IMG/VR virus record: IMGVR_UViG_3300030104_000603
Coordinates: 1 to 42,132 of that record
Origin: a virus
Direction: 5' to 3' (one strand)
DNA length: 42,132 bases
Shown here in pieces: positions 36,014 to 37,238 of the stretch. Below the pieces are notes generated by a model. It saw only the letters and a program-made list of their open reading frames with translations. It did no database searches and was not told the origin of the DNA. The translations under genes and the position numbers were made by a program. Each line of letters opens with the position of its first letter. Positions within the stretch are counted from its first letter, which is position 1.

Positions 36014-36102
36014 ATGTGCTCCTTTTTTTGTTTGTTTGTGTTTTCTAACATAATTGCTAGAGACAATAAATAGTTTAATTGTTTCGGCTCTTCAAGCCTC
36101 AT
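36010..36102 (-). CDS. 30-residue early peptide
   Basis: A short ORF, MRLEEPKQLNYLLSLAIMLE, with a basic end. Its TGA overlaps the next ATG by 4 nt, and the ribosome site of the next gene (AAGGAG) lies within its last codons. There is no clear ribosome site of its own. The ATGA junction is the main support. Confidence 0.4.
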   Translation of the reverse strand: MRLEEPKQLNYLLSLAIMLENTNKQKKEHI

Positions 36103-36114
36103 CAGTCTAGCTTT

Positions 36115-36145
36115 GAGCTCAGGCGATACTAGACCGCCTAAGCCC
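36115..36145 (-). other. 11-bp hairpin in the early leader
   Basis: GGGCTTAGGCG, loop GTCTAGTAT, CGCCTGAGCTC pairs over 11 positions on the minus strand with two G-U wobbles. The wobbles would be A-C mismatches on the other strand, which points to a minus-strand transcript. It lies between the first and second early genes. Confidence 0.5.
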
Positions 36146-36366: not shown

Positions 36367-36430
36367 TTTAACTCCTATTATTAATTGATTTATATAAATT
36401 CTAGTAAAATTACTAGATACAAACAAACAC

Positions 36431-36566
36431 GGCTTAGTCAATTTTGACCCGTTCCCGTTTTAGGTGTGCTCCGCACATCACCTGAGTGGATTTCCCCTAG
36501 TCCTTAGCGATTATCAACTTGCCGAGATACGAGCTCCGTCCTGAGACTAACTCCACCCGACTAGGG
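36431..36566 (-). ncRNA. Candidate pseudoknotted structured RNA upstream of early genes
   Basis: Within 136 nt the minus strand holds CCCTAGTC...GACTAGGG (8 bp) crossing GGGTGGA...TCCACTC (7 bp, one G-U), in the order A-B-A'-B'. This is either a pseudoknot or two exclusive states. Downstream are AGGT-GAT-GTGC-GGA-GCAC-ACCT (bulged hairpin) and GTCAA-AA-TTGAC. It is far more GC-rich than the flanks and has no ORF. It would form the 5' part of the early transcript. Confidence 0.5.
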
Positions 36567-36671
36567 CACTATTTATTTTTGTATGTAGATAAAAAAAATT
36601 TTAAAAAAAAATAATATCTAACCAATAAACTAATAAAATCCATATGCAAGTAAAAAATGATATAAATGCTT

Positions 36672-36811: not shown

Positions 36812-36901
36812 ATGAAAAGAATATTTGAAAAGATTATTTATGTATTATTTTGGATAATGCTTATTCTATTAACTTTGATAGCTTCAGCATTTATTAAATA
36901 A
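36812..36901 (+). CDS. 29-residue plus-strand membrane peptide
   Basis: An ORF, MKRIFEKIIYVLFWIMLILL, ending TLIASAFIK: a basic N terminus and a single membrane helix of about 20 residues. GAGG lies 12 nt upstream of the ATG, and a plus-strand phage promoter motif lies about 75 nt further up. It is the best-supported plus-strand gene in the window. The function is unknown; small membrane peptides near genome ends may act in lysis or exclusion. Confidence 0.5.
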   Translation: MKRIFEKIIYVLFWIMLILLTLIASAFIK

Positions 36902-36933
36902 TATTTATAGTTTGTCTGTCTTGATGTGTTGTT

Positions 36934-37086
36934 ATGGATATTAAAGAGAATGAGAAGACAAAAACAAAAGAGAATATAAAAGAGAAAATAAAAAGTAAAA
37001 CACCAAACGAAAAAAACAGACTAGCTCTAACAAACACAAAAAGAAAACAATCAACGGCTTTAGGTGTGCCCTTGCGTGTTCTTTAG
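36934..37086 (+). CDS. Possible 50-residue lysine-rich plus-strand ORF
   Basis: An ORF beginning MDIKENEKTKTKENIKEKIK and ending 'STALGVPLRVL', with about 14 lysines. There is no ribosome site before the ATG, and the sequence is simply purine-rich, so chance is quite possible. It lies 32 nt after the plus-strand membrane peptide and could be co-transcribed. The remaining bases to the endolysin stop (37,087-37,238) carry GT-rich repeats and no ORF that I can support. Confidence 0.25.
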   Translation: MDIKENEKTKTKENIKEKIKSKTPNEKNRLALTNTKRKQSTALGVPLRVL

Positions 37087-37105
37087 GTATGCGTGGCGGG
37101 TGTGC

Positions 37106-37171
37106 GTGTGCCCGTGTGTGTATATAGAGCGTGAGTGTCGCTTTTTGTGTGCGGGGGTGTGCCCGTGTGTG
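37106..37171. repeat. GT-rich direct repeats at the putative genome end
   Basis: GTGTGCCCGTGTGTG occurs exactly twice (37,106-37,120 and 37,157-37,171), and a shorter relative GGTGTGCCCTTGCGTG stands near 37,063. The 110-nt tract is strongly G/T-biased on the plus strand and GC-rich against an AT-rich genome. It lies between the last late gene and the early region, where T7-like genomes have terminal repeats. Confidence 0.55.
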
Positions 37172-37238
37172 CGTAAAAAGTGAAGCCCTACGGGGAAACC
37201 TGTGTCTCGCTGTAGTCGTGATACCTATTCACATTTTT

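Follow-up and report, generated by a model that had tools for sequence, protein, structure and literature searches.

The window analysed here, a 42,132-nt stretch of viral DNA (positions 1 to 42,132 of IMG/VR record IMGVR_UViG_3300030104_000603), comes, as its genes indicate, from a T7-like podovirus whose closest named relatives are SAR11-infecting phages (Pelagivirus). The minus strand carries all the genes for RNA polymerase, primase/helicase, DNA polymerase, tail proteins and terminase, and the last of these shares 72-84% identity with its counterparts in many cultured Pelagibacter phages (the Pelagivirus group and its neighbours). Between the last late gene, a lysozyme (37871-37239), with the terminase also on the late side, and the first early genes, which lead on to the phage RNA polymerase, lies a conserved structured RNA that we call element A (Table 1). 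The initial annotation had placed a candidate RNA upstream of the early genes, and this location is right. The first early ORF had no match in PHROGs.

Table 1. Features of element A and its surroundings, in window coordinates.
Feature	Position	Strand	Basis or remark
Possible early promoter, TTGCAT-16 nt-TATTGG (weak)	36622..36649	-	suggested by position
Element A, whole; conserved structured early-leader RNA	36429..36569	-	R1 match, homologue alignment
P0 5' strand, GTG	36567..36569	-	pairs with CAC at 36488-36486
P1 5' strand, CCCTAGTC	36559..36566	-	compensatory changes, fully paired
P2 5' strand (7-bp pairing), GGGTGGA	36552..36558	-	only the first two G conserved
Conserved loop strand, ATCTCGGCAAGTTGATAATCGCTAAG region	36503..36529 (limits approximate)	-	near-invariant columns in A1 and A2
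P1 3' strand, GACTAGGG	36495..36502	-	P1 pair counts
Purine-rich 6-nt bulge between P1 and P0, GAAATC	36489..36494	-	conserved A1 columns; family form (G)AAANYC
P0 3' strand, CAC	36486..36488	-	covariation with P0 5' strand
Extra hairpin, AGGTGATGTGCGGAGCACACCT	36462..36483	-	sequence comparison; absent from L022, the nearest A-type relative
Proposed P4 of the window, ACGG-GAACGG...CC-GT	36429..36458	-	assigned by analogy with L022
Possible relic of adjacent hammerhead, GTTTGTTTGTATCTAGTAATTTTACTAGA	36400..36428	-	relatives compared
First early ORF, 68 aa	36160..36366	-	AGGAG ribosome-binding site
Hammerhead, RAGATH-1-like, complete core	36057..36140	-	full-length match to RF03152

Upstream of element A, promoter-like sites recur by eye at a distance of 70-85 nt, and at the position matching the candidate of the window L022 has TTGTAA-17-TATAAA and L028 has TTGCAT-16-TATAAA (L numbers denote compared loci); generic sigma-70 scans were not above chance in this AT-rich DNA. 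A terminator scan of the early region, on both strands, found 9 against 3.1 expected. We also noticed a palindrome-like block, GCATAGCTGTTATGC(AA), which is conserved upstream of the element in L022, L058, L090, L111 and L117, is common to A-type and B-type phages (see below) and precedes the presumed early promoter; it could be an operator. A small ORF of 29 aa (approximately 36813-36902) lies on the plus strand, opposite to the other genes, in a long non-coding stretch, with a good ribosome-binding site and, by eye, one predicted membrane span. Finally, the DNA at 37060-37180, between late and early genes, contains GT-rich near-repeats and is possibly near the genome end or a terminal repeat.

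The initial annotation proposed a pseudoknot built of two pairings on the minus strand, and both are present in the window: the 8-bp pairing P1 and a 7-bp pairing, P2, of GGGTGGA with TCCACTC (36490-36484). Their order is interlocked as described, with GAAA (36494-36491) linking the 3' strands and the 5' strands abutting with zero linker, and both are perfect apart from a sole wobble: G-U when read on the minus strand, but A-C if the plus strand were read. An interlocked pair of 8 bp and 7 bp with at least 4 G-C pairs each is unique in the 42-kb window, both strands searched; when the 136-nt stretch was dinucleotide-shuffled 4000 times, one appeared at the 8+7 bp stringency in 3 of the shuffles. 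With the criteria relaxed, the window contains about 28 interlocked pairs; the topology alone therefore means little, and homologues had to decide.

Loci were gathered via lysozyme, terminase and a conserved 18-nt flank, a descriptor search then brought element A to light in further pelagiphages (Eistla EXVC025P and HTVC019P among them), and scanning IMG/VR with a motif added more members. Alignment A1 holds 19 sequences, and a larger alignment of 26 sequences consists of 22 clear members and 4 divergent ones. Because the latter was fitted to the structure of our covariance model R1, more weight attaches to how well each non-seed sequence, taken singly, agrees with the fold. The four rows that diverge most reach only 14-17 bits, and their assignment owes as much to a location immediately ahead of a hammerhead as to the score. 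In the window, which belongs to the R1 seed, R1 matched the core at 36483-36572 (57.4 bits, E 5e-15). Results against 100 sources showed 23 strong matches, and the model found the non-seed L090, L096 and L106, as well as HTVC168P, HTVC022P and HTVC201P, all non-seed too, at the expected place. Neither blastn against phages, for which the family is too diverged, nor an exact-pattern scan for the window's own junction found anything, and a scan with RGGGAAATCCACTCARG had L022/L032 as its only real match. The 65 matches of a motif scan of genome contigs, mostly a recurrent Chryseobacterium stretch plus scattered unrelated genomes, were taken as chance from the record titles. Rfam matches to snoR16, the hairpin ribozyme and miRNAs were at chance level, and neither element A nor the element B described below has an Rfam match.

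In the homologues, the 8-bp pairing held: P1 is kept in 22 of the 22 clear members and 100% of its cells are paired in A1, with compensatory double changes in 6 of 8 pairs and few G-U pairs. Directly 5' of P1 lies GWG, the partner of the P0 3' strand within YCCWCUC. P0 is GUG/CAC or GAG/CUC in 18 of the 19 sequences of A1, with L115 keeping 2 of 3 pairs; over the 26 sequences it is 98.7% paired, its middle pair being UA in 15, AU in 10, CG in 1 and broken in none, and non-seed members bring the further variants CCG/CGG (L090) and AUG/CAU (HTVC168P). Taken jointly, P0 and P1 reach a covariation score of 0.67; shuffles gave 0.15, and slid controls no more than 0.12. When every pair of columns was scanned without a preset structure, the P1 and P0 pairs came out on top, and the minimum-energy fold of the window's own core is P0+P1. 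The loop strand has the consensus AUCUGGGCKAGUUGUCUYUAAR, and the small variable hairpin P3 is paired in 77.5% of cells. P4 also covaries (GCTAGA/TCTAGC, GCCAGA/TCTGGC, AAGCCAT/ATGGCTT, AAGCTAT/ATAGCTT, AAGCTGT/ACAGCTT, ACCTGA/TCAGGT); in the window, an extra hairpin is inserted ahead of the P4-like stem. Considering that P1 and P0 covary while the 7-bp pairing is broken in homologues, the alignments indicate that the family fold is nested, in the order P0, 3'-side (G)AAANYC bulge, P1, P3, loop strand and then the P4 hairpin. Element A is slightly larger than initially annotated, starting at 36569 with P0 and ending near 36429.

The 7-bp pairing did not withstand the comparison. It is complete in the window alone, with 50% of cells paired with 36484-36490 overall in A1, and the 18 homologues there keep 2-4 of its 7 pairs without compensation, an outcome that the initial annotation had itself named as refuting; the pseudoknot is rejected as the family fold. 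Instead, its 3' strand covaries with the three bases 5' of P1, which form the P0 5' strand, giving a nested hairpin. Of the original proposal, the structured RNA stands, conserved, on the minus strand and in the leader of the early genes, and what falls is the pseudoknot. The P2 duplex has an energy of -9.0 kcal/mol in the window and -3.8 in L022, which keeps 4-5 of the pairs, compared with -1.4 to -1.9 kcal/mol in three homologues tested. The alternative pairing of 7 bp (window) or 4-5 bp (L022) could still form as a lineage-specific conformer; in the phage of the window it is, to judge from the relatives, not what selection kept. A pseudoknotted RNA with P1 and P2 interlocked, acting as leader, switch or nuclease-resistant element, is in our opinion very improbable, despite the low chance of finding both pairings in the window and the strength of the P2 duplex there.

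We also looked at how element A is distributed. Over 23 complete records, R1 matched strongly in Eistla, HTVC168P, HTVC019P, HTVC022P and HTVC201P, the cultured phages with element A, which always have the early genes downstream of it, and in MedDCM-OCT-S35-C6. Weak matches at the right place were obtained in HTVC109P and HTVC021P, and none in HTVC011P, HTVC120P, HTVC200P, HTVC309P, Bylgja or Roseobacter phage CRP-113. Comparing phages by locus revealed near-identical neighbouring DNA, yet different RNAs at this slot. L022 carries a relative of the element A of the window, while L005, L010, L023, L028, L029 and L031 carry an unrelated element B in the place of A; the flanks of the window and L005 are about 90% identical, but one has A and the other B. 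As close relatives have the unrelated B or a third sequence, C, at the spot of A, the slot is modular. Element B was also found in HTVC031P, HTVC142P and HTVC121P and has, by inspection, compensating changes of its own (CUGAC/GUCGG, CUCAC/GUGGG, CUCUC/GAGGG; ACCG/CGGU, ACCU/AGGU). Its core is GUCGGACACCGCAACAG, and its loci include L005 7281-7425, L010 3784-3870, L111 1232-1374, L112 1276-1424 and L103 543-661. Sequence C lies at L011 2901-3075 and L048 11103-11276.

In most members, a hammerhead core follows 62-80 nt downstream of P0 (usually about 70 nt), while directly after element A none was found in the window, L022 or Eistla. At this place relatives have GTTTGTC-hairpin-CTGATGA...CGAAACAAAC, and the possible relic in the window keeps the cleavage triplet and stem I, with the CUGANGA and GAAA core gone; in the window group, by this alignment made by eye, the adjacent hammerhead seems to have been reduced to those two parts. 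The complete hammerhead of the window lies 3' of the first early ORF and matches RF03152 over its full length with 25.3 bits (E 0.13), short of the gathering score, which is 56.3. Its alignment has CUGANGA, GAAA and a UH cleavage site joined by three stems, as in a hammerhead, and an ACTGAnGA...CGAAAC core is conserved at the equivalent place in L005, L011, L023, L045, L048 and L057. Copies of the type III hammerhead in relatives reach 37-41 bits (E down to 1.6e-6), also below the Rfam gathering score. In 23 named phage records, the hammerhead pattern occurred 15 times forward, 0 times in reverse and 0 times for a reversed control. This strand bias is a better indicator of the direction of transcription than one wobble pair. 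Comparison of the sequences establishes the fold, strand and position of element A as well as its hammerhead neighbour.

In many genomes, two to four hammerheads are interspersed among the early genes. At least three per genome, on the transcribed strand, were seen in L064, L067, L076, L079, L085, L087, L088, L090 and L099, and many of these pair GTAACA/TGTTAC or similar in the end-holding stem. In Eistla EXVC025P (L102 1455-1620), the hammerhead slot after element A has GTTTGTT-hairpin, then a large structured region and finally AACAAAC, which may represent a different ribozyme or one that has decayed.

The anatomy of element A is well supported by these comparisons; its function we infer. 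The best explanation, which we consider rather probable, would be a conserved two-hairpin early-leader RNA, transcribed by the host, often severed by a hammerhead and perhaps put-like. In this view, the early transcript of SAR11 podophages would begin with element A, a leader of about 110-140 nt in which hairpin I (P0 and P1, with the purine-rich bulge on the 3' side and the conserved 22-nt loop strand beside the small variable hairpin) is directly followed by hairpin II (P4), and it would be made as the polymerase of the host moves into the early operon. The hammerhead about 70 nt downstream would, in most relatives, sever element A, producing an mRNA with a 5'-OH; in the lineage of the window, where the adjacent hammerhead was apparently lost, the next one would come after the first gene. 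Both transcription and cutting in vivo we infer from sequence.

The folded RNA may stay with the host RNA polymerase and so favour read-through of the early operon in the style of the put RNA of phage HK022, which binds host RNA polymerase and suppresses pausing and termination with no need of a tether (PMC9378689). As put works untethered, this would fit a leader that is later cut off by a hammerhead and, if the role is put-like, the swap of A, B and C at the slot would be an exchange of functionally equivalent leaders. We advance this polymerase-bound role only tentatively, as one possibility that is only slightly ahead of an RNA acting in trans and of a device for stability, and the conserved loop could just as well be where a protein or ligand binds. 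Still more doubtful, to our minds, is the broader proposal that these leaders form a new class of phage antiterminator or polymerase-binding RNA in a modular early-operon slot of pelagiphages, with at least three unrelated RNAs (A, B and C), all of them positioned to influence host transcription before a hammerhead releases them.

Element A could also be a phage small RNA working in trans, freed by the hammerhead so that the folded RNA titrates a host protein or RNA. The hammerheads directly downstream in most members, the conserved unpaired loop strand and the fact that unrelated structured RNAs can replace element A give this possibility some weight, but the window, L022 and Eistla have no directly adjoining hammerhead core and no target is known, and we see it as a minority prospect. 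A compact leader with two strong hairpins, placed ahead of the hammerhead and the first gene, may otherwise serve as a device for stability or insulation of the 5' end, whose fold would shield the leader and keep upstream sequence off the hammerhead or the first ribosome-binding site; a near-invariant loop and bulge would be superfluous for a mere insulator, however, and we regard this as rather unlikely.

Ribozyme classes cluster in places such as beside phage hammerheads, and element A, with its conserved internal loops and adjoining hammerheads in phages, might itself be an undescribed self-cleaving ribozyme. Yet the next position is already occupied by a hammerhead in most members, and element A is without HDV features and matches no Rfam ribozyme, which makes this improbable. 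Scarcely likely at all, in our judgement, is a DNA-level signal (packaging, replication or operator) with inverted repeats resembling RNA hairpins: the site between late and early genes is where T7-like genomes have their ends, and P1 has few G-U pairs, but P0 and the asymmetric conserved bulge suit an RNA, and the strand is always that of the early genes and the hammerheads.

A host-transcribed early leader would matter beyond the phage of the window, since few cell types of the ocean are as abundant as SAR11, and its podophages abound accordingly. A conserved, covarying RNA family without an Rfam match, first in the early operon and next to hammerheads, implies that these infections open under control at the RNA level, and the fact that A, B and C replace one another as modules suggests selection on this RNA by hosts or superinfecting phages. 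The presence of element A in the cultured phages named above makes it directly testable.

With regard to known systems, the likeness to HDV-like and theta ribozymes (PMC10879173) lies in the window's two pairings, which look interlocked, whereas the second pairing is unconserved in element A and the junction is (G)AAANYC. The nested double pseudoknot of an HDV-like ribozyme, in which a P2 strand 3' of P1 pairs with the strand that directly follows the P1 5' strand, is absent, with P2 paired in 50% of cells and full only in the window; in place of the J4/2 catalytic C and P1.1, the joining strand is (G)AAANY followed by an invariant C leading into P0, and no partner for P1.1 was seen in element A by inspection. 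No defining feature of theta ribozymes was found either, and these adjoin phage tRNAs (PMC10879173), while no tRNA was found in the window. A group I intron has a P3/P7 core, P4-P6 and more than 200 nt, and element A is shorter than 145 nt. Neither the Rfam HDV families nor the group I introns gave a match, in agreement with the initial annotation, which had set both classes aside. The full RAGATH-1 hammerhead model (RF03152) is matched by the ribozyme downstream, a neighbour and not element A.

Closer parallels are found among phages themselves. Clusters of hammerheads are known from operons of phages and prophages, and cleavage in vivo has been described for a prophage set of A. tumefaciens, in which three surround ardA with marR and an integrase nearby, a gene set also present in these pelagiphages; as far as the part of that report considered here goes, hammerheads flank early genes in the prophage clusters as in pelagiphages, but element A itself has no hammerhead core, and that part notes no leader RNA beside the hammerheads (PMC3088659). 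HK022 put, of about 70 nt with two stem-loops downstream of early promoters, is like element A a phage RNA at the start of early transcription that needs no dedicated protein (PMC9378689). Element A shares with it adjacent stem-loops (the P0/P1 hairpin, then P4) and conserved unpaired bases; it is longer, has the P0/bulge/P1 architecture and usually a hammerhead behind it, and the likeness is one of architecture only; R1 found no match in the HK022 record in a search without a positive control. Our search of the open-access literature on pelagiphage ribozymes or leader RNAs returned no description of element A or B. In conclusion, a phage leader RNA beside hammerheads is of a known kind, and the family of element A is, as far as our searches reach, new.
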